A DNA stretch of 38,187 nucleotides from Chloroflexota bacterium (GTDB lineage Archaea; Iainarchaeota; Iainarchaeia; Iainarchaeales; GCA-2688035), in contig JAFCCG010000014.1 in assembly GCA_017610335.1 (NCBI GenBank), forward strand, positions 1 to 38,187, given 5' to 3'. The translations under genes and the position numbers were made by a program. Within the stretch, counting starts at the first letter, position 1. Each line of letters opens with the position of its first letter. Positions 8,261 through 32,241 of the stretch are shown one piece after another. The notes under the pieces are model-generated. The model was not told where the DNA came from. It did no database searches and worked only from the letters and a program-made list of their open reading frames with translations.

Positions 8261-8330
8261 GGTTTAATTCCCGTCTCCCGGATTTGCGCGAATTTGGTTT
8301 GTAGCTGATAGTAAGTAGTTTGTGGTTCTG
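8261..8330 (-). repeat. tRNA-Tyr-derived repeat R6 (with A/C-rich arm)
   Basis: On the minus strand an A/C-rich arm (about 8290-8330, CACAAACTAC...CAAACC) begins near the RelE stop. It is followed by GCAAATCCGGGAGACGGGA, which matches the T-arm and acceptor 3' end of tRNA-Tyr (32103-32126) with few changes. The trailer and the CGCCGGACGG-like box of other copies are not evident. It forms the outer end of the RelE cassette. Confidence 0.75.
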
Positions 8331-8338
8331 CATTTTTT

Positions 8339-8620
8339 TTATCTTCTATACATATCGTCATGGTGACCGAATTTATCAAACATGATAAAGTTTTTTTCTT
8401 TGAATACTTTGAAGAAGAGTACAAAGCTTTTTGCGATGTGAACTCTTTTGTATTCCTTTAAGCCATGTCGCATATTCTTGTAGTGGTCAATTGTTATCTT
8501 ATCTGAATTAGCTATTTGCTTGATTTTCTTATTCAGTATTTCCACAGTCTTTTTGTCTTTTTTTGCTAGAACTCTGATTGTAGCCTTTAGTTCATCTGAA
8601 AGGTCAAATGAAAAAGGCAT
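8339..8620 (-). CDS. RelE-superfamily toxin
   Basis: A 93-residue protein of the archaeal RelE/ParE-fold toxin type, starting MPFSFDLSDELKATIRVLAKKD. It has the central DHYKNMRHGLKEYKRVHIAKSFVLFFKV and the C-terminal DKFGHHDDMYRR that carries the basic and His residues expected to act on ribosome-bound mRNA. It directly follows the antitoxin gene (TAA-ATG junction), the usual antitoxin-first order. The pair lies alone between two repeats related to the tRNA-Tyr 3' end, between mscS and the ZIP gene, which suggests it arrived as a unit. mRNA cleavage is inferred from the family. Confidence 0.88.
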   Translation of the reverse strand: MPFSFDLSDELKATIRVLAKKDKKTVEILNKKIKQIANSDKITIDHYKNMRHGLKEYKRVHIAKSFVLFFKVFKEKNFIMFDKFGHHDDMYRR

Positions 8621-8884
8621 TTACTCGCCTCTACAAAGCTTGTCCAATTCTTTTACACTCATCTTTCTGAAGCCGTATTTCTTAATATGCCTGTTGCAGG
8701 ATTCAATAACCTCTCTGATGACTTCTTCCTTAACCTCTGGCTCAACAAATTCCTCGCCGTACATTTCAGCAAACTTGTCCAGTGCATCCCCTTTGTCTCT
8801 CAAGCCATACTTTTCTTTCACTACACCAAGAACTCTGCTGGTGTAATCCTTTACTTTAAAATTCACAGCAACCTCTTTACCCAT
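8621..8884 (-). CDS. Antitoxin of the RelE pair (DUF2683-like)
   Basis: An 87-residue acidic protein, MGKEVAVNFKVKDYTSRVLGVVKEKYG, with a ribbon-helix-helix-like N-terminus followed by helices (KGDALDKFAEMYGEEF) and a C-terminal segment likely to wrap the toxin. It resembles DUF2683-type archaeal antitoxins that precede RelE toxins. It has its own promoter (TTTATAAATAA near 8920) and an AGGTGA site. The promoter begins right after the conserved CCGTCCGGCG box of repeat R7, so the cassette carries its own promoter. Neutralisation of the toxin is inferred from the pairing. Confidence 0.82.
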   Translation of the reverse strand: MGKEVAVNFKVKDYTSRVLGVVKEKYGLRDKGDALDKFAEMYGEEFVEPEVKEEVIREVIESCNRHIKKYGFRKMSVKELDKLCRGE

Positions 8885-8931
8885 ATAATTTCACCTAATA
8901 TAGACTTAGTTAGAATTATTTATAAATCTTT

Positions 8932-8990
8932 CCGTCCGGCGTTCCTTTTTCTTGATAGAAAAAGTCCTGCCTCCCGGATTTGCATCGGGC
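8932..8990 (-). repeat. tRNA-Tyr-derived repeat R7 (T-arm, acceptor end and trailer)
   Basis: Over about 58 nt this copy matches the tRNA-Tyr 3' part and its downstream flank (32071-32128) at nearly 90 per cent, including the trailer hairpin CTTTTTC-TATCAA-GAAAAAG and a CGCCGGACGG box. It lacks the A/C-rich arm of the other copies and instead abuts the mscS stop codon (8998). It therefore looks like the left (host-side) junction of the RelE cassette, with R6 as the right one. Confidence 0.85.
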
Positions 8991-26377: not shown

Positions 26378-27016
26378 TTACTTTAGGACTTTTCCTGTTT
26401 TCATATACCACATAAACAGGTCAAGTTCTGCTCCTGGCATTTTAAGCTCTTTTGCAAGCTTCAAAAACTTTTCCTCTATTTCAAGATACTTTTTCCTGCC
26501 AAGGGTCTTTGGCCTTTCTCCAATTAAGCCTTCTTCCAACATAAGGTTCAGGATATGCCTGTCCAAAATTGCAAAATTCTTAAAGCCAGCATTTCTTAAA
26601 AAATGAGAAGCTTCCTTATAGCCAAGACCTTTGACATTTTCTACAAGCCATTTCCTTGCAGCCTGCTCTCCTTCTTTCCCTGCAATTTCCTTCACAATTC
26701 CCTTAACATTTAAGTGTTTTCTTGCCCTCACAATAAACTTTGCCTTGTTGTTGTGAAACCTGTGGCCTTCTTCTCTGATGCATTTCATTACCTCAATTTC
26801 GCCTGCTTCACAAAATCCTTTAGCGCCAAGCGTTTCCTGAATTTTAATGGCTGTTTCCGCCCTGCTGTTTGCTGTAAGAATGCAAAAGCACAGTTCTGAA
26901 AACCATTGCTTTCCACTTTTTCTTTTGAATGACTCAAATTCAAGAAGCTGTTCCTTAACCTTTTTAGCAACCGGCTTTTTTTGCAACTGCCTTACTTTTT
27001 GAACAATATTTTTCAT
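26378..27016 (-). CDS. ogg: 8-oxoguanine DNA glycosylase/AP lyase, archaeal Ogg2 type
   Basis: A 212-residue HhH-GPD protein. The hairpin and catalytic lysine lie in VKGLGYKEASHFLRNAGFKNFAILDRHIL, with the catalytic Asp in LDRHIL, as in Ogg2 enzymes such as that of Methanocaldococcus. It excises 8-oxoguanine and cleaves the abasic site. The C-terminal ELDLFMWYMKTGKVLK is typical of the group. Its start codon overlaps the stop of an upstream ribbon-helix-helix antitoxin gene as ATGA, so a repair enzyme sits where a toxin gene would be expected. It lies at the distal edge of the cassette array. Confidence 0.93.
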   Translation of the reverse strand: MKNIVQKVRQLQKKPVAKKVKEQLLEFESFKRKSGKQWFSELCFCILTANSRAETAIKIQETLGAKGFCEAGEIEVMKCIREEGHRFHNNKAKFIVRARKHLNVKGIVKEIAGKEGEQAARKWLVENVKGLGYKEASHFLRNAGFKNFAILDRHILNLMLEEGLIGERPKTLGRKKYLEIEEKFLKLAKELKMPGAELDLFMWYMKTGKVLK

Positions 27017-27225
27017 GCATTTAATCCTTTTTTTATTCTTGCCTCACCGTCTCCCTCTTCAACAAGTCGTTTGTAGGCGTATGCTATAAGTGATTCTTTT
27101 TCCGCTTCAAGAATATTTATCTTTTCTCGAAATGTTTGTCTTGCTACTTCTACCCATTTTATTTCAGCGTGCTTTCTCATCTTGCTGTGCAATTCATCAG
27201 GAATAGCCATAGTCATGTTAACCAT
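27013..27225 (-). CDS. Ribbon-helix-helix antitoxin-like protein (copy 1)
   Basis: A 70-residue RHH protein, MVNMTMAIPDELHSKMRKHAE, with the KWVEVARQTFREKINILEAEKE helix. It is closely related, at DNA level too, to the antitoxin of the RHH-MazF pair at 31813-32016, including the CTTTAAATAG-type promoter about 35 nt upstream. Here no toxin follows; ogg starts in its stop codon. It may be an orphan that regulates its own promoter, and hence ogg, or a remnant of a lost pair. Confidence 0.85.
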   Translation of the reverse strand: MVNMTMAIPDELHSKMRKHAEIKWVEVARQTFREKINILEAEKESLIAYAYKRLVEEGDGEARIKKGLNA

Positions 27226-27264: not shown

Positions 27265-27660
27265 TTATGTCTGACTTTTCAGGTGTTTGATTAAGTCCTG
27301 AATATCCTTAGCAATGTAGTCAAAAAAACTTTCCAGCCAATCGGAATATTTTCTTGTTTCTTCTACTTCTACAGCGTAAATTTTTTTGCCTAGTGCCTTT
27401 GCATAGCCTGCTTCCAAATATGCCCCTCTTGTATCAGACAAAATCAGGATAAGAAATTCGCAATTTTTTATTACCCCCAATTGTTGCTCCAATGTTTCTT
27501 TACCATTTCTCTTCTGGTTTTCTTGTGGGAGAAAAATGTCAAAGCCCGCGTCTCTTAGGTTTTTTGCAATGTTGAGATTTCTTTCTGTCTTTGATTCGGA
27601 AATAGAGTAACTATTTGAATTGCCTGTAAAGGCCATCGGACTTGCCAAATATACTGCCAT
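27265..27660 (-). CDS. Nucleoside 2-deoxyribosyltransferase-like protein
   Basis: A 131-residue protein starting MAVYLASPMAFTG, with the family signature DTRGAYLEAGYAKALGKK (from D76, catalytic Glu probably E83) and the middle segment DIFLPQENQKR. The fold is shared by nucleoside deoxyribosyltransferases and related nucleotide hydrolases, which act in salvage and in some defence or signalling systems. Substrate cannot be read. It lies just beyond repeat R5, as a further cassette in the minus-strand array, before the orphan antitoxin and ogg. Confidence 0.82.
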   Translation of the reverse strand: MAVYLASPMAFTGNSNSYSISESKTERNLNIAKNLRDAGFDIFLPQENQKRNGKETLEQQLGVIKNCEFLILILSDTRGAYLEAGYAKALGKKIYAVEVEETRKYSDWLESFFDYIAKDIQDLIKHLKSQT

Positions 27661-27700
27661 AATTAAACTGACTCACAAACAGTATAAAAGATTAATAGGC

Positions 27701-27778
27701 GCTCGGCGTGATTGTGTAATCCAGCCTCCCGGATCTGCGGGTTGGTGGGTAGTTTTTAGTGTGTGGTTTGTGATTCAT
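27701..27778 (-). repeat. tRNA-Tyr-derived repeat R5
   Basis: On the minus strand an A/C-rich arm (ATCACAAACCACACACT...) starts 2 nt after the stop of the 203-residue gene. It is followed by CGCAGATCCGGGAGGCTGG (T-arm and acceptor end of tRNA-Tyr) and then ATTACACAATCACGCCGAG, the type-B trailer shared with R1 and R3. Confidence 0.85.
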
Positions 27779-27779
27779 T

Positions 27780-28391
27780 TTAATTGCCTCTTTTTGTGGC
27801 AATAACTAAGTAACGCTTCGTTCTTTGATTTACCATTCCAAAGAAGGGGTGCTTTTTTGATAGCATATCTAAGATGTTTTTTTCTGCCAAGGCAGTGCTG
27901 CTGCGGGAAATAATTCTTGGGTCATCTGTTTCAAAAAATCTAACTTTAAAATCAGCTTTTTGCAATTCGTCAACAAGGTTTACTGTAGCAAATCTTTTGC
28001 CTCCTTGCCTAGCGTGACCTTTTCTATTTGGTGTAAAATCTGTTAGAATGATAATGTTGCCATTTTTAGTCAAAACGTCTTTCATTTTTTGACAAAGCAA
28101 ATCAAACCTTGCTTTTTTATCAATTATTCCTACGTGGGGCATATCCAACCGTATCGTGTGGTATCTTTCCTGTTTTTTTATTGCAGAATCTAAGAATTTA
28201 TGCGCTCTTTTTGGAACAAACTCAAAATGCCGGAATTTTTTTCCCAATGATGAAATAGTTGGCTCACGATGCAGGAATGCAGAATCCAGTGCGGTGTGTT
28301 GCCCTTTTCCTTCCTTAGAGGCTTCAATATCTTTCATCGGAATGCTTGAACCAAGATGCAAATAGCCCTTGCTTTTCCTGCGTGCTTTCAT
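27780..28391 (-). CDS. Unidentified 203-residue cassette protein
   Basis: A basic protein with no family I can name. It starts MKARRKSKGYLHLGSS. The middle reads ERYHTIRLDMPHVGIID, then an alpha/beta section (NIIILTDFTPNRKGHARQGG, VNLVDELQKADFKVRFFETD, KRYLVIATKR) looks like the second half of a Rossmann-type methyltransferase, without a visible SAM-binding glycine motif. It stands alone between repeats R4 and R5 with its own promoter (CTTTTAAATAAG near 28420). A nucleic-acid-related or defence role would fit the context, but that is a guess. Confidence 0.65.
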   Translation of the reverse strand: MKARRKSKGYLHLGSSIPMKDIEASKEGKGQHTALDSAFLHREPTISSLGKKFRHFEFVPKRAHKFLDSAIKKQERYHTIRLDMPHVGIIDKKARFDLLCQKMKDVLTKNGNIIILTDFTPNRKGHARQGGKRFATVNLVDELQKADFKVRFFETDDPRIISRSSTALAEKNILDMLSKKHPFFGMVNQRTKRYLVIATKRGN

Positions 28392-28427
28392 ATTACAATT
28401 TATGCCTCTTTCTTATTTAAAAGAAAC

Positions 28428-28495
28428 AGATTCCTGCCTCCCTAATCTGCACACGAGGGCATTAGTGGGTAGTTGGTGGTTAGTGGTCTGTAATA
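28428..28495 (-). repeat. tRNA-Tyr-derived repeat R4
   Basis: The minus strand reads ACAGACCACTAACCACCAAC and onward (A/C-rich arm), then TGTGCAGATTAGGGAGGCAGG (T-arm and acceptor end, diverged). The trailer and the CGCCGGACGG box are missing. Upstream of the arm (28500-28518) it shares CTTGTCTCATCTTA with the equivalent place before R2. Confidence 0.75.
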
Positions 28496-28532
28496 TATCC
28501 TTTTCTTGTCTCATCTTATCAAACCTCCTAAC

Positions 28533-29090
28533 TCAAACATTTCCTTGGATTACATATTTCCATCCGGGTTTCCATTGTTTTTTCTTTCGCCAGTCTTCTT
28601 CTATGGCTTGTTGCCATGTCTTTCCGTTGGCTATAACTTCCAATGCAAGTTGTGGCGCTTGGTGTGCCACGATGGCAACTTTCTTGTTGGTATATTTCTC
28701 CAGTAAGTCTTTTAGGAAGCTTCTGATTCTTTTTTCCACGTCTTTGTAGCTTTCCCCATTTGGAAATGGATTGTCAACATATTTTTGTAAAGAGGCTTCC
28801 ATTTTGGAAAAGTCTTTGCCGGTTAAATCTCCGTAATTGCATTCTCTTAATCTTTTGTCTTTTGTGAGTGGAATTCTTTTTTCAAACACTATTTTTGCTG
28901 AATCTACTGCTCGCTTTAAATCAGAAGAAAAAACCGCATCAAATTTTTTGTCCTTTATAATCTCTCTTAGCTCAATTGACTGCTTTTTTCCAAGTTCTGA
29001 CAGTTCTCCTTGTTGCCAGCCGGTAGCAAATCCTTTCTCGTTGTCTATTGTTGTGCCATGAACAAAATAGATTATCTTAATGTTTCTCAT
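28533..29090 (-). CDS. Histidine phosphatase superfamily protein lacking the usual RHG arginine
   Basis: A 185-residue phosphoglycerate mutase-like protein. The catalytic region reads IIYFVHGTTIDNEKG, where nearly all relatives have V-R-H-G, so the Arg before H11 is absent. Other features are kept: DLKRAVDSA (R60), RLRECNYGD (E83) and the second histidine in VAHQAPQLAL (H143). I recall a similar VHG subgroup in candidate-phyla bacteria, so this may be a subfamily trait rather than a new mutation. The phosphatase substrate is unknown. It follows the Fic gene with a 4-nt gap and shares its cassette. Confidence 0.85.
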   Translation of the reverse strand: MRNIKIIYFVHGTTIDNEKGFATGWQQGELSELGKKQSIELREIIKDKKFDAVFSSDLKRAVDSAKIVFEKRIPLTKDKRLRECNYGDLTGKDFSKMEASLQKYVDNPFPNGESYKDVEKRIRSFLKDLLEKYTNKKVAIVAHQAPQLALEVIANGKTWQQAIEEDWRKKKQWKPGWKYVIQGNV

Positions 29091-29094
29091 TTAA

Positions 29095-30066
29095 TCACTT
29101 CTTCACTTTTTTCAACAGTTTTCCAATTATGAGTTTTTTGTTTTCGTTGATTATTTCTTCTATTTCTTTTGCTCTTTTTTCCAGGCAGGAAACTATAAAC
29201 CTGCTGAACTTGTAGTACTGTTTTGACAACTGGACTCTTTCAAGCAGCACAATGTAGTTTTGCCTGTTTTCTAAATTGATTATTGCTCTTGGGAATCCCT
29301 CTTTTTGCAGTGCCCAGTTCAATATTTCTCTTCCTGTCCTGCCGTTTCCGTCTCTGAACGGGTGTACTTGTTCAAATCTCGCGTGGAATTCCGAAGCCAG
29401 TTCAATAATGTGTTTTTTCCCTTTTTGGTTCCATTCAACCAGTTTTTTCATTTCTTTTTCTACTTCTTCTGCCTTAACCGGCTTTACTTTGGATGCCTGA
29501 ATGAATATTGGCCCGTCCCTGTATTCGCCTGGCTTTTTTTCCTTAAAGCCGTCCATTATCGCGGCATTAATTTTCTTGACAGCCTTCTCATTAAGTTCTT
29601 TTATTCTGCTTGAAACCTTTGCGGCCTTTTTCATGTTTTCGATTTCTTTTATCTCATCAATTTTTTTTCCTGCCACTGCTGCACCCTTTGTTAGGACAAT
29701 ATTCGCTTCCTGCAAGCTTAGCGAATTCCCCTCAACTGAAGCGCTTCCTTGTGCGTATCTTACAAACTCGTCTTCTTTGAACGATTCGAATCCTTCGGGA
29801 AAAAAGTCTTTCACTATCTCAAAATCGACTTTCAGCCTTTCAAGGGCTAGCAAGTCAGAAAAGGACAAAACCTTCAAATCAGATTCTTTCTGGCTTTTCT
29901 TTGTATTCTCCAGGGCCTTCTTTCTGACCAGTTCATCAAATGCGTTTTCTATTTTTTCTTCCACTTGTTCTTTGTCGCCCAGAAAAAAACTTACTCTTTT
30001 TCCGTTTACTCTGTCCTCTAAGTAAAAGTAGTCTTTTCCCTTAATTTTGCGTTTTGAAACAAACAT
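29095..30066 (-). CDS. fic: Fic-domain AMPylase/nucleotidyltransferase with built-in inhibitory motif
   Basis: A protein of about 323 residues. The catalytic motif HPFRDGNGRTGR (H235 to R246) is complete. An N-terminal inhibitory helix with SASVEGN (E112) matches the (S/T)xxxEGN motif that holds Fic enzymes inactive. The C-terminus is helical. ATG at 30066 (MFVSKRKIKG) is preferred over 30090, because a TATA element (ATAAATAG near 30112) puts the transcription start about 30086. Fic proteins transfer AMP or other groups onto protein Ser/Thr/Tyr; the target is unknown. It lies in a cassette bounded by R3 and R4, together with the histidine phosphatase gene. Confidence 0.93.
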   Translation of the reverse strand: MFVSKRKIKGKDYFYLEDRVNGKRVSFFLGDKEQVEEKIENAFDELVRKKALENTKKSQKESDLKVLSFSDLLALERLKVDFEIVKDFFPEGFESFKEDEFVRYAQGSASVEGNSLSLQEANIVLTKGAAVAGKKIDEIKEIENMKKAAKVSSRIKELNEKAVKKINAAIMDGFKEKKPGEYRDGPIFIQASKVKPVKAEEVEKEMKKLVEWNQKGKKHIIELASEFHARFEQVHPFRDGNGRTGREILNWALQKEGFPRAIINLENRQNYIVLLERVQLSKQYYKFSRFIVSCLEKRAKEIEEIINENKKLIIGKLLKKVKK

Positions 30067-30140
30067 ACAACAGTTAACACCAGAAAACATTAAAAAGTAA
30101 TATGTTGCTATTTATGGTGATAACTGGTTTTTGGTTCTTT

Positions 30141-30225
30141 TGCCGTCCGGCGTGATTGTGTAATCCCGCCTCCCGGATCTGCACATGGGGCGTTTGGTTA
30201 GTAGAGGCAGTTAGTGGTTTGTGAC
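30141..30225 (-). repeat. tRNA-Tyr-derived repeat R3 (most complete)
   Basis: Minus-strand order: an A/C-rich arm (CACAAACCACTAACTG...) beginning a few nt after the UPF0175 stop; CCCCATGTGCAGATCCGGGA then GGCGGGA, identical to the tRNA-Tyr T-loop, T-stem 3' side and acceptor end; a type-B trailer ATTACACAATCA; and the box CGCCGGACGG. The Fic promoter follows. Confidence 0.9.
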
Positions 30226-30229
30226 TTTT

Positions 30230-30586
30230 TCATTTCCAAACCTTTTGAAGGTTTTTCAATCCTTGTGCGAATTCTTCTTCGCCTAATGGGTTCACTATGT
30301 TTCTTTCTTTTAGCTCATCCATTATCTCCCATAGGCTTATTCCTGCGTTTTCTGCTGCCTTCCCTATACTTATCTTCCCTTCTTGGTATTGTTTTATTGC
30401 TTTCTCCAGTTTGTACTGTTTTGCCCCGGGCGATTTCTTCTTGAATCCTTCTGAAATAATTTTCTTAAGAGAAGTAAATGGATCTATGCCTCTCCGGTTT
30501 GTAATATTGTGTGTTACAAGTACTCTCTTCTCCCTTCTCTTCTGCTTTTTCTTAATCTCAAATTTCCTTCTTTTTGGTTTAGGCAT
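30230..30586 (-). CDS. UPF0175-like HTH (antitoxin-type) protein
   Basis: A 118-residue basic protein. The C-terminal half (YQEGKISIGKAAENAGISLWEIMDELKERNI) matches the helix-turn-helix of UPF0175 proteins, usually antitoxins paired with PIN-type toxins. The N-terminal 25 residues are very basic (KPKRRKFEIKKKQKRREKR). No toxin gene accompanies it, so it is an orphan in its own cassette between R2 and R3. It could act as a regulator, or complement a toxin elsewhere. The start codon directly follows the GTCCGGCG box of R2. Confidence 0.72.
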   Translation of the reverse strand: MPKPKRRKFEIKKKQKRREKRVLVTHNITNRRGIDPFTSLKKIISEGFKKKSPGAKQYKLEKAIKQYQEGKISIGKAAENAGISLWEIMDELKERNIVNPLGEEEFAQGLKNLQKVWK

Positions 30587-30600
30587 TTAAGTCACTTTTT

Positions 30601-30720
30601 CTGTCCGGCGGGTTCTATCGTATCATTTATGCATTTGTCCTATTTAAGAATTAGTAATCCCGCTTCCTGGATCTGCACATGGGATGATTGGTTTGTGGTA
30701 GGTGGTTAGTGGTTTGTAGT
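30601..30720 (-). repeat. tRNA-Tyr-derived repeat R2
   Basis: Minus strand: A/C-rich arm (TACAAACCACTAACCACC...), CCCATGTGCAGATCCAGGAA and GCGGGATTACTAAT (acceptor end and trailer start). Then there is an extra segment of about 45 nt that holds a promoter-like TTCTTAAATAGG, and the box CGCCGGACAG. The inserted promoter makes this copy the longest. Confidence 0.8.
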
Positions 30721-30759
30721 ATGGCTTCTTTTTCTTGTCTCATCTTAATTTGCTCTTAA

Positions 30760-31128
30760 TTATTTTATGAATTCAACATTCTTCATTTCCTTGAACTGCC
30801 TGTCGCCTGTGAGAAATTTGATGTTTTTTTCCAACGCTATTTGGTAGCCTATTGCGTCAACGTAAGAGATTTTTTTTGCTTTTTCTTTTAGTCTTAGTTG
30901 CATCGCTTTTTTGATTGTTTCATCTTCTATGTCTTCTGTTATTGGTAAGAAAGAATCGTATGCCGTTTCTGCTTTTTCTTTGCTTATATCTTTTAGCATC
31001 ACATAATAGAGTTCCATCAAGTTAAGCCTGCTTGTTATTCCTATATGTTCTTGGAAATATTTCTTGAAATTTTTGTTGGCGTTAACGTATTCTATTAGTG
31101 CATATGTGTCGTAGAAGTATTCTGCCAT
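30760..31128 (-). CDS. vapC: VapC-type PIN-domain toxin
   Basis: A 122-residue PIN ribonuclease. Acidic residues expected at the active site are visible: YDTYALIEY (D7), MELYYVML (E39), SYVDAIGYQIA (D near 91) and TGDRQFKEM (D near 108). PIN toxins cleave tRNA or rRNA. It abuts the VapB gene (TAA-ATG), the normal antitoxin-first order, and the pair fills one cassette between R1 and R2. Confidence 0.9.
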   Translation of the reverse strand: MAEYFYDTYALIEYVNANKNFKKYFQEHIGITSRLNLMELYYVMLKDISKEKAETAYDSFLPITEDIEDETIKKAMQLRLKEKAKKISYVDAIGYQIALEKNIKFLTGDRQFKEMKNVEFIK

Positions 31129-31341
31129 TTAATTCCATCCTGCTCTTAACTCGTCTTTAATCTCTTGTGCGCTTCTTTTGAATTTTGCAATGCCAAATAA
31201 CTCTTTTATCGGCATAATTTTCCTTACTTCCACAACAAGTTTGTCGTTTGGCCTGATTTTTTCCTTTTCAATTGTTTCGGCTGGGAAGGTTGCGCCAATG
31301 CTGTTTCCCCATTTTCTTGCAGTAACAACAACTTCAGACAT
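31129..31341 (-). CDS. vapB: VapB-type AbrB/SpoVT antitoxin
   Basis: A 70-residue protein with an N-terminal swapped-hairpin AbrB fold (VVVTARKWGNSIGATFPAETIEKEKIRPNDKL) that binds DNA. The C-terminal helix (FKRSAQEIKDELRAGWN) should wrap VapC. A TTTAAATATAA promoter and GGTGA site lie between it and repeat R1. Expected to repress its own operon. Confidence 0.9.
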   Translation of the reverse strand: MSEVVVTARKWGNSIGATFPAETIEKEKIRPNDKLVVEVRKIMPIKELFGIAKFKRSAQEIKDELRAGWN

Positions 31342-31392
31342 AATTATATCACCAATATAATTATATAATAAGTTATATTTAAACCTTTCCTT

Positions 31393-31480
31393 TGTCGTCC
31401 GGTGTAATTGTGTAATTCCGCTTCCTGGATTTGCATACCGGGGATTTGGTTGGTGGTCTGCGGTTATCGGTTTGTTGTTT
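31393..31480 (-). repeat. tRNA-Tyr-derived repeat R1 (closest to the tRNA)
   Basis: Minus strand: A/C-rich arm (ACAAACCGATAACCGC...) beginning 1 nt after the mazF stop, CCCCGGTATGCAAATCCAGG and AAGCGGA (T-arm and acceptor end, diverged), type-B trailer ATTACACAATTACACCGGAC. The T-loop reads TGCAAAT, keeping A58, where the tRNA itself now reads TGCAGAT. Confidence 0.85.
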
Positions 31481-31481
31481 C

Positions 31482-31838
31482 TTATAATTCATACAATTCC
31501 TTGATTTTTTGTTTTACTTCTTTTAGTTTTTGGCTTGAGATTTTTCCTATGTTTTTGGTAATCAACTTTTTTTCTATTGTTGTGGGAAAATCCACAAGAA
31601 TTTTGCTTTCTACTTTTAGTTCTCCTCTGCCCAAATCTTTGTTTGTCAGTTTTACATCGTATTTTGCTTTTGCAGATGTGGAGGAAACACTTAAGACAAT
31701 CAAGTCTTCTGAATGCTTGTTGTAATTGGAATTACTTATTACAAGAACTGGCCTTCTCTTAAAGCCCACTTGCTGCGAGTAGAGAATGTTTGCTACTATT
31801 ATGTTGCCTTGTTCAAAACTTGAAGAGTTTTTCTGCAT
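31482..31838 (-). CDS. MazF/PemK-type toxin
   Basis: A 118-residue endoribonuclease-type toxin. QGNIIVANILYS at the start, the substrate-loop segment FKRRPVLVISN, and EDLIVLSVSST in the core are typical of MazF/PemK. ATG at 31838 is chosen because it starts this conserved region; it lies inside the end of the RHH antitoxin gene (26-nt overlap), implying translational coupling. mRNA cleavage is inferred. With the RHH gene it makes the cassette nearest the tRNA-Tyr 3' end. Confidence 0.88.
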   Translation of the reverse strand: MQKNSSSFEQGNIIVANILYSQQVGFKRRPVLVISNSNYNKHSEDLIVLSVSSTSAKAKYDVKLTNKDLGRGELKVESKILVDFPTTIEKKLITKNIGKISSQKLKEVKQKIKELYEL

Positions 31839-32016
31839 CGTCTCCCTCTTCAACAAGTCGTTTGTAAGCATATGCTCTAAGTGGTTCTTTTTCCGCTTCA
31901 AGAATATTTACCTTTTCTTGAAATGTTTGTCTTGCCACCTCGGCCCATCTTATTTCAGCGTGCTTTCTCATCTTGCTATGCAGCTCATCAGGAATTGCCA
32001 TGGTCATATTAGCCAT
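31813..32016 (-). CDS. Ribbon-helix-helix antitoxin of the MazF pair (copy 2)
   Basis: A 67-residue RHH protein, MANMTMAIPDELHSKMRKHAE, strongly similar to copy 1 at 27013-27225 and differing mostly near the C-terminus (GDDAEKLFKF). Its promoter, CTTTAAATAG near 32050-32060, lies just after the tRNA-Tyr trailer, so the cassette carries its own promoter. Compared with copy 1 the leader has about 10 extra nt from a short AAGTA-type duplication. Confidence 0.88.
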   Translation of the reverse strand: MANMTMAIPDELHSKMRKHAEIRWAEVARQTFQEKVNILEAEKEPLRAYAYKRLVEEGDDAEKLFKF

Positions 32017-32082
32017 AAAATCACCTAAATAAGTAAAATAAGTAGAAGTCTATTTAAAGCTTTCTTTCGCCGTCCAGAGTGC

Positions 32083-32102
32083 CTTTTTCTTGATAGAAAA
32101 AG
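32083..32102 (-). terminator. tRNA-Tyr trailer hairpin and T-run
   Basis: Directly after the tRNA discriminator base the minus strand reads CTTTTTC-TATCAA-GAAAAAG, a perfect 7-bp stem with a 6-nt loop that includes a T-run, a likely archaeal termination or 3'-processing signal. The same sequence occurs after the acceptor end in repeat R7 at 8 kb. Confidence 0.6.
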
Positions 32103-32241
32103 TCCCGCCTCCCGGATCTGCACCGGGGACCTCTCGGTAACTGCTTTTGCAAGCAGTACATTCAAAATGAATGCTTGCTCCCATTTTCTGGAAGTATTAA
32201 AAAACTACAGCCGAGCGCTCTAACTGCTGAGCTAAGGCGGG
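32103..32241 (-). tRNA. tRNA-Tyr (GUA) with 66-nt intron
   Basis: Acceptor stem CCCGCCT/AGGCGGG (C1-G72, the archaeal Tyr identity pair), D-stem GCTC/GAGC, anticodon stem CTCGG/CCGAG with anticodon GTA, 5-nt variable loop AGGTC, T-stem CCCGG/CCGGG, discriminator A73. The intron (32139-32204) lies after position 37 and can form two hairpins (CTTCCA/TGGGAG and GCAAGC/GCTTGC). Unusual: the T-loop reads TGCAGAT (G at 55 and G at 58 instead of T and A), and the D-loop AGCAGTTA lacks the GG pair. The 3' half is repeated seven more times in the window. CCA is not encoded. Confidence 0.9.

Follow-up and report, generated by a model that had tools for sequence, protein, structure and literature searches.

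The window, by which we mean the whole stretch of DNA analysed (38,187 nt, a single contig of an Iainarchaeales (Diapherotrites) MAG), carries behind its tRNA-Tyr gene what appears to be a series of small mobile gene cassettes that lack an integrase and have that tRNA as their anchor, an array built by site-specific accretion mediated by a tyrosine recombinase. From sequence comparison, we give this reading a probability of about 0.82. The comparison brings out the anatomy of the repeats, units edged by the repeat core, the turnover of these units from one species to another, the presence of one cassette at several loci, and integrase elements at the site. The distribution of the repeats, the turnover, the occurrence of one cassette at two loci and the integrase at tRNA-Tyr are what lead us to cassette accretion at tRNA-Tyr, and the differences between species point to movement of cassettes, as exact units, between loci and between species.

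The anchor is an intron-containing tRNA-Tyr gene that both default ARAGORN and Rfam miss. The intron option recovers it at 32102-32241 on the minus strand, in agreement with the sequence-only reading, which had placed it at 32103-32241. Its 3' end, with the core at 32103-32116, is the predicted attB-like site of the array. When up to 3 mismatches are allowed, this 14-nt core, TCCGGGAGGCGGGA, matches the whole 38-kb window at exactly 8 places, all on the minus strand, and the same scan of the reversed window, used as a control, gives none. The matches are at 32116 (the tRNA), at 31429, 30671, 30177, 28445 and 27733 (R1 to R5, the five repeats already claimed downstream of the tRNA), and at 8978 and 8282, two cores that had been overlooked. 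From the tRNA outwards, the array reads:

32102-32241, minus: tRNA-Tyr gene, complete and intron-containing, the array anchor (ARAGORN with introns; T-stem 5/5 paired)
32068-32101, minus: cassette 1 trailer, T-rich hairpin CTTTTTCTATCAAGAAAAAG and box CTCTGGACGG, read from the sequence
31482-32016, minus: cassette 1, RHH antitoxin-like gene (31813-32016; weak VapB match) and MazF/PemK toxin (31482-31832; PF02452, E=2.4e-18)
31388-31478, minus: R1, C/A heptad leader, core 31416-31429, trailer TTACACAATTACACCGGACG
30760-31341, minus: cassette 2, MazE-fold antitoxin (31129-31341; PF04014, weak) and VapC PIN toxin (30760-31128; PF01850, E=1.4e-10)
30601-30720, minus: R2, leader, core 30658-30671, displaced box CGCCGGACAG at 30601-30610
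30230-30586, minus: cassette 3, UPF0175 protein (PF03683, E=8.3e-13)
30135-30225, minus: R3, leader, core 30164-30177 exactly as in the tRNA, box CGCCGGACGG
28533-30090, minus: cassette 4, Fic (29095-30090; PF02661; SoFic-like in PADLOC) and histidine phosphatase (28533-29090; PF00300)
28420-28494, minus: R4, leader, diverged core 28432-28445 (TTAGGGAGGCAGGA), without box
27780-28391, minus: cassette 5, 203-aa protein without known family (family searches and order genomes)
27693-27774, minus: R5, leader, core 27720-27733, box CGCCGAGCGCC
27265-27660, minus: distal unit, nucleoside 2-deoxyribosyltransferase-like (Nuc_deoxyrib_tr, PF05014, E=3.5e-10), without a distal repeat
27013-27225, minus: truncated RHH gene, matching that of cassette 1 over 194 nt at 89% identity

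Each repeat consists of a C/A-rich leader of 7-bp units and the tRNA-Tyr 3' end, in most cases with a CGCCGGACGG-like box. The leader is conserved, about 40 nt long, present upstream of each core copy and absent from the tRNA, and its 7-bp periodicity is strong (z=13.9 at lag 7 and z=7.8 at lag 14, over 24 leaders). The earlier description of the repeats had the tRNA end right but lacked this non-tRNA leader, and the box that it took as usually trailing follows directly after R1, R3 and R5 but is displaced by about 45 nt in R2 and missing from R4. At each repeat of the window, the core lies 46-88 nt behind a stop codon. Since R1, R2 and R4 have diverged more from the tRNA than R3 and R5, core divergence provides no clean clock for the order of insertion. 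Core and box also form an imperfect inverted repeat, CCGGGAGGCGGGAT-TACACA-ATCACGCCGGACGG, whose spacer measures 6 to about 34 nt depending on the lineage and whose core is nearly invariant. We considered it as a dif-like or attC-like hairpin and set it aside, the spacer being variable and the core too uniform for covariation.

The gene units between the repeats are 0.5-1.7 kb long (494-1732 bp exactly in the window), and most seem to have a TATA-like promoter of their own. Profile matches agree with the gene identities first assigned (PemK/MazF, VapBC, UPF0175, Fic, histidine phosphatase and Nuc_deoxyrib_tr). The 203-aa protein of cassette 5 has no match in Pfam or NCBIfam, and among the 73 order genomes searched it is present in this one and in none of the other 72; equivalence to a methyltransferase-like cassette of G005 was rejected, as the two are not similar. 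Beyond R5, the deoxyribosyltransferase-like gene is present as claimed, but there is no distal repeat and the truncated RHH copy further on had been missed. In the sister genome G002, a complete RHH-MazF pair occupies the place of that truncated gene, before an Ogg gene, and the truncated gene is probably what is left of an old RHH-MazF cassette at the distal end.

The two additional cores belong to a sixth cassette, with both its repeats, at 8266-8985 behind an MscS gene, a site absent from the sequence-only reading:

8959-8985, minus: left repeat, a short distance after the stop codon of MscS; T-rich trailer as in cassette 1
8339-8884, minus: cassette, antitoxin-like gene (8621-8884) and YafQ/RelE toxin (8339-8620; TIGR00053, E=2.5e-16)
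8266-8325, minus: right repeat, leader and core 8269-8282

The hairpin trailer of cassette 1 (32068-32101) recurs after the MscS-site core. In relatives without a cassette at MscS, there is no core at that position. As both repeats of the site have a core and the cassette-free relatives have none, the simple insertion of a circle at an attB does not explain it.

Across the order, the tRNA-Tyr 3'-end pattern is found in 46 of 75 genomes, and the control yields no match. Additional 3'-end copies lie downstream of tRNA-Tyr at 14 loci or more, with about 10 copies in one genome (G045, where the leader is of another type). The downstream copies match the host's own tRNA-Tyr variant, as in G025; G070 retains the heptad leader with a different core (TCTGGGAGGGGGGA-type). 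The tRNA-Tyr loci that we compared lie behind a conserved PAP2 gene and contain the following, G000 being the window's own genome (87% complete):

G000: five cassettes and the distal unit
G001: none
G002: RHH-RelE and ABM-like/RHH-MazF
G003: integrase element
G004: one RHH-MazF
G005: integrase element; seven-core array on a different contig

The sequence-only reading had named beforehand two findings that would speak against cassettes, a fixed gene order and repeats scattered without relation to genes. As far as the data reach, neither is the case: sister species differ in the cassettes that follow this tRNA-Tyr, and the copies in the window are confined to the tRNA, the array and the one further cassette site. 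Cassette families recur, in up to 10 of 26 arrays, and recurring cassettes are 76-89% identical between genomes and loci (tRNA-Tyr in one species, MscS in another). In most comparisons across loci and genomes, the cassette edges fall on the core. A PIN cassette is 88% identical over 989 bp, core to core, between the MscS site of G003 and the tRNA-Tyr array of G005; the RHH-RelE cassette at MscS in G000 is 89% identical over 635 bp to the first tRNA-Tyr cassette of G002; and the RHH-MazF cassettes of G004 and G005 are 84% identical over 685 bp. Some homology edges end 30-60 nt before the core, as for RHH-MazF of G000 compared with G002 and G006.

The tyrosine recombinase for which a search had been suggested is found directly behind tRNA-Tyr in related genomes, with an integrase ORF that starts 55-71 nt behind the tRNA in G003 (435 aa, L063:5356-6660), G005, G011 and G039. 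In G003 and G005, one end of the integrase element is at tRNA-Tyr and the right end abuts cassettes. In G039, a heptad match in opposite orientation lies between tRNA-Tyr and the integrase start. In the window's genome, at 87% completeness, searches by pattern, model and family reveal no intact tRNA-Tyr integrase and only a C-terminal remnant on contig C79; in G045, integrases are found solely at other places. The tRNA-Tyr integrase scores 36.8 bits against the integron integrase model TIGR02249, for which the cut-off is 265, and its best model, XerA_Arch, is likewise below cut-off. The 11 core matches in viral contigs lie in sequence that appears unrelated, and none of them marks a free element.

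An alternative that we consider unlikely is independent decay, in which successive tRNA-Tyr integrative elements were each stripped of the integrase and reduced to a single gene (CIME accretion), with no dedicated cassette system. The integrase elements at the same tRNA in relatives are consistent with it, the remnant on C79 shows that decay does occur, and CIME-IME accretion is documented in bacteria (PMC5704250). However, the units are uniformly small, in the window as in G005 (666-970 bp), they have a standard leader in common, and they recur in different genomes and loci; on these grounds they seem to move in small form. Decay would also often leave integrase fragments, and the cassette ORFs include neither an integrase, as had been claimed, nor fragments of one. 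A bacterial-type integron or CALIN, with IntI-driven cassettes and attC sites, is very improbable. The early label "integron-like" stands for the architecture (small cassettes of short, same-oriented ORFs, one site each, with toxin-antitoxin-rich cargo), and both integrons and CALINs have been described from archaea (PMC9668308), but none of the six repeats searched has an RYYYAAC or GTTRRRY attC box, the integrase score shows that the enzyme is not IntI, and the sites are tRNA-derived and follow host tRNA variants. If elements like casposons or DDE transposons had inserted serially at one tRNA end, each repeat being a target-site duplication, similar short direct repeats would result; we give this almost no credence, since terminal inverted repeats are found in 0 of 12 cassettes (all z between -1.7 and 1.6), the conserved block takes in the leader and exceeds a target duplication in length, and a tyrosine integrase holds the same site in relatives. 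That the repeats are RNA signals spread with genes, such as tRNA-like 3' ends maturing mRNAs, is hardly believable: they are just behind stop codons, resemble a T-arm and acceptor strand and have a box partly complementary to the latter, but cassette copies retain no more than 0-4 of the 5 T-stem pairs, all 5 of which are present in tRNA genes, while the DNA core persists, so that it is the DNA sequence and not the tRNA fold that is conserved, and turnover and movement at the core are left without account.

Under cassette accretion at tRNA-Tyr, a cassette would consist, in order, of box, promoter, one or two genes, stop codon, C/A heptad leader and tRNA-Tyr 3'-end copy. A tyrosine recombinase would insert the cassette, presumably in circular form, by joining its core to that of the tRNA 3' end or to any other, and recombination at the putative crossover position would restore the tRNA and leave one repeat per cassette. 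The array would grow by repeated insertion, presumably on the tRNA-proximal side, and cassettes could be lost or relocated when two cores recombine. The recombinase probably binds the heptads as arm-type sites, and it probably acts in trans from integrase-bearing elements at the same tRNA-Tyr site in relatives. Toxin-antitoxin and Fic genes make up most of the cargo and would also keep the arrays stable. The odds seem to us about even for a broader proposal, that this is an independently evolved gene-capture platform of Iainarchaeales and a second invention of the integron principle. In this view the cassettes are standard packages of one or two genes with heptad arm sites and a site derived from tRNA-Tyr; tRNA-Tyr tyrosine integrases shuffle them in trans, and the order as a whole shares them. 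An integron-type architecture is seen here in DPANN archaea with another site, a tRNA end, and probably another member of the tyrosine recombinases. The arrays illustrate how ordinary tRNA-targeted integration could give rise to a cassette platform, and they suggest a possible route for the exchange of toxin-antitoxin and Fic genes among small-genome archaea. The mobilisation of integrase-less cassettes becomes testable, and the site is simple enough for sequence searches in many more genomes.

Integrons are the textbook gene-cassette platform, and Tycheposons are tRNA-end-bounded cargo elements of cyanobacteria that need tyrosine recombinases and are larger than the cassettes described here. 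For Diapherotrites/Iainarchaeota, we found no description of such arrays in the open-licence literature. As in tRNA-targeted integrative elements, the target tRNA is complete and 3'-end copies are displaced downstream; unlike in those elements, the cassettes contain no integrase, which is confined to distinct elements inserted at this tRNA. Archaeal elements of this kind (SSV, pNOB8 and cryptic integrated elements, the thaumarchaeal ones 2.6-98 kb long) share the tyrosine integrase, the tRNA target and tandem integration at one site, but they are larger and normally encode their integrase, and the available text of the two papers (PMC8371274, PMC6563490) does not describe arrays of integrase-less cassettes. 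Integrons and CALINs, including archaeal ones (Ghaly et al. 2022, PMC9668308), are alike in their tandem small genes with one recombination site per cassette, in their toxin-antitoxin-rich cargo and in cassettes often without a local integrase. They differ in that the site here combines a heptad leader with the 3' end of tRNA-Tyr and lacks attC motifs, the anchor is a tRNA gene where theirs is attI beside intI, the integrase available is not IntI, and most cassettes here seem self-promoted. In CIME/IME accretion at tRNA or gene ends (the ICESt1 family and others, PMC5704250), integrase-less elements likewise stand in tandem, with att copies of the targeted gene end between them, and integrase-less units adjoin same-site integrase elements, as in G003 and G005; those elements are mostly larger and decayed and form short tandems, whereas here the units are standard, 0.5-1.7 kb long, and number up to about 10.

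The array is anchored on one gene of the window, a complete contig from a 1.29-Mb metagenome-assembled genome (MAG) of 87% completeness:

32102-32241, minus strand: tRNA-Tyr, complete, with intron

When we scan the window for the 14-nt core taken from the 3' end of this tRNA, allowing up to 3 mismatches, we find eight matches, all on the minus strand: the tRNA, the repeats R1-R5 downstream of it, and cores at 8978 and 8282. The reversed window, used as a control, has zero matches at that threshold. The sequence-only reading had described R1-R5, which the scan recovers, but its list missed the last two cores. Each repeat consists of a C/A-rich leader of about 40 nt, the stretch of tRNA-Tyr that runs from the T-loop to the acceptor end, and a variable trailer, mostly with a CGCCGGACGG-like box, just upstream of the TATA-like sequence of the next gene. 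The leader sequence is absent from the tRNA, and its 7-bp period is clear in 24 leaders from several genomes (z=13.9 at lag 7, z=7.8 at lag 14). A second leader type, approximately AAAACCGGCAGGANTTGCACCGGTAGAGCAGTGTTGGGAGGCGGGATT, replaces these C/A heptads at the ends of some units (loci L083, L085, L090 and L066). In all six window cassettes (6/6), the core starts 46-88 nt after the stop codon. The T-stem is intact in tRNA genes but broken in the cassette copies, which retain 0-4 of its 5 pairs, so it is the DNA sequence that is conserved and not the tRNA fold.

Homologous cassettes from different loci and genomes were aligned together with their flanks. Genome G003 has a PIN cassette at its MscS site (the second cassette site, behind an MscS gene) that aligns core to core with one in the tRNA-Tyr array of G005, with 88% identity over 989 bp. 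In G002, the first tRNA-Tyr cassette corresponds to the RHH-RelE cassette at the MscS site of G000, the genome of the window (89% over 635 bp), and RHH-MazF cassettes match between G004 and G005 (84% over 685 bp). In these three alignments, the flanks beyond the repeats have no match; a few cassette alignments stop 30-60 nt before the core. Judged by such comparison, the cassettes are units with edges and a shared site. At the MscS site of the window, cores 8978 and 8282 bracket an antitoxin-like/YafQ-RelE pair. The cassette after MscS differs between G000 and G003, and the stretch read behind MscS in G001, G002 and G004 has neither cassette nor core. Since the core stands at both junctions and is missing in relatives, the MscS case is only partly explained. 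As a separate observation, the R2 trailer and promoter (window 30590-30660) are near-identical to those of a G005 repeat (L080, 10115-10183). The genes behind them, UPF0175 and a methyltransferase-like gene respectively, both start MPxPKRR, which looks like a single 5' end attached to two different genes.

Across the genus, a conserved PAP2 gene lies upstream of tRNA-Tyr, but the sequence behind the tRNA varies between genomes.

Content behind tRNA-Tyr in six genomes of the genus
G000: RHH-MazF, VapBC, UPF0175, Fic-phosphatase, 203-aa ORFan, NDT-like, truncated RHH
G001: no cassette
G002: RHH-RelE, ABM-like, RHH-MazF, degenerate repeat, Ogg
G003: integrase element; RHH-MazF next, on another contig
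G004: only RHH-MazF
G005: integrase element; array next, on another contig

Cassette content differs among these related genomes (G000-G005), the kind of change that the sequence-only reading had wanted looked for at tRNA-Tyr loci, and the comparison shows turnover. The sole distal unit common to G000 and G002 is RHH(-MazF) adjoining Ogg, truncated in G000, which fits insertion on the tRNA-proximal side, with the oldest cassettes presumably distal.

A tyrosine recombinase had been suspected in the sequence-only reading, and in relatives its gene lies directly behind tRNA-Tyr (G003, G011, G005 and G039). In the first three, a 435-aa protein (PF00589) with a zinc-ribbon-like C-terminus starts 71 nt behind the tRNA, its frame broken in G005; in G039, a related integrase N-terminus starts 56 nt behind. 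An IntI identity was rejected, as this integrase failed the integron-integrase model test. In G003 and G005, the integrase element adjoins the cassette array with its right end. Both ends of the element share GGGAGGCGGGATTA, except that the G003 copy differs by one substitution. In G039 (contigs C38 and C56; loci L254 and L253), tRNA-Tyr is followed by the integrase element on one contig and by other sequence on the other. The two contigs are 98.6% identical up to GGCGGGATT and diverge right after, so this MAG seems to hold both occupied and empty alleles. G039 also has a heptad match, in opposite orientation, in the stretch that separates tRNA-Tyr from the integrase start; this would be compatible with arm-type sites, though it is no more than suggestive. 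In the window's own genome, G000, we find a C-terminal integrase remnant (C79) and, at other places, an intact gene (C18) and a fragment (C61), with no integrase beyond these.

About 25 arrays yielded 88 cassette proteins as cargo. The commonest are PemK/MazF (10), Fic (8), YafQ/RelE (7), PIN, HicA and UPF0175; the remainder includes single metabolic or other enzyme genes. None of the 88 matches the integrases described above, which bears out the claim that the cassettes carry none.

We surveyed the order Iainarchaeales (Diapherotrites), including Ca. Iainarchaeum sp. STA_60. The tRNA-Tyr 3'-end pattern is present in 46/75 genomes, many of these matches being the tRNA gene by itself, and a control pattern in 0/75; in 12 additional genomes of the class the tRNA-Tyr pattern is absent. 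Extra copies, one or several per locus, lie downstream of tRNA-Tyr at no fewer than 14 loci (control, zero). G045 has about 10 repeats within 18 kb of tRNA-Tyr, and G005 has seven cores on a single contig. Downstream copies in G025 and G012 resemble the host's own tRNA-Tyr variant, and in G070 the heptad leader is attached to a core of the TCTGGGAGGGGGGA type. A public record labelled Thaumarchaeota (JAFCCH010000062.1, L137) matches G004, which belongs to the genus of the window, so its label is probably wrong. Several other tRNA genes, for Ile, Lys, Gln, Trp, Ser (twice in tandem) and Leu, also have a copy of the tRNA's 3' end about 70-115 nt downstream. The copies in G045 come after a T-rich hairpin (e.g. 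CGCCAACCTTTTTCTAAAAGGTTGG); such units are short, palindromic and non-coding, and carry a duplicated tRNA end.

Loci with a copy of the tRNA's own 3' end
G045: L310, L313, L315, L324, L325, L331, L332
G000, weaker: L306, L307

L128 (G006, contig C84) has a tRNA-Thr with one 3'-end copy about 0.76 kb downstream and an integrase gene just past it, possibly a cassette at another tRNA.

The most likely mechanism is site-specific recombination between tRNA-end cores, with an integrase that would be supplied in trans by elements using the same tRNA. We infer a circle, arm sites and a crossover within about 17 bp, from the T-loop end to GGGATT; new cassettes would enter behind the tRNA, pushing older ones downstream. 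All the evidence is comparative and comes from fragmented MAGs, in which binning errors could touch single loci but hardly the recurrence over many genomes.

Each of the parts is of a known kind: tRNA-targeted tyrosine recombination, tandem accretion and CIMEs (PMC5704250, PMC8371274, PMC6563490). What appears new is the combination: arrays of up to about 10 standardised, integrase-less gene cassettes at a tRNA-derived site, of which we found no description in the openly licensed literature searched. A thaumarchaeal survey lists mobile integrons as an element class undetected in archaea at that time, and a later report of archaeal integrons (PMC9668308) is based on IntI and attC. The array fails these two defining tests, an IntI-type integrase and attC, and to that extent the proposed term "integron-like" does not hold; it is apt in that the array works in the manner of an integron.
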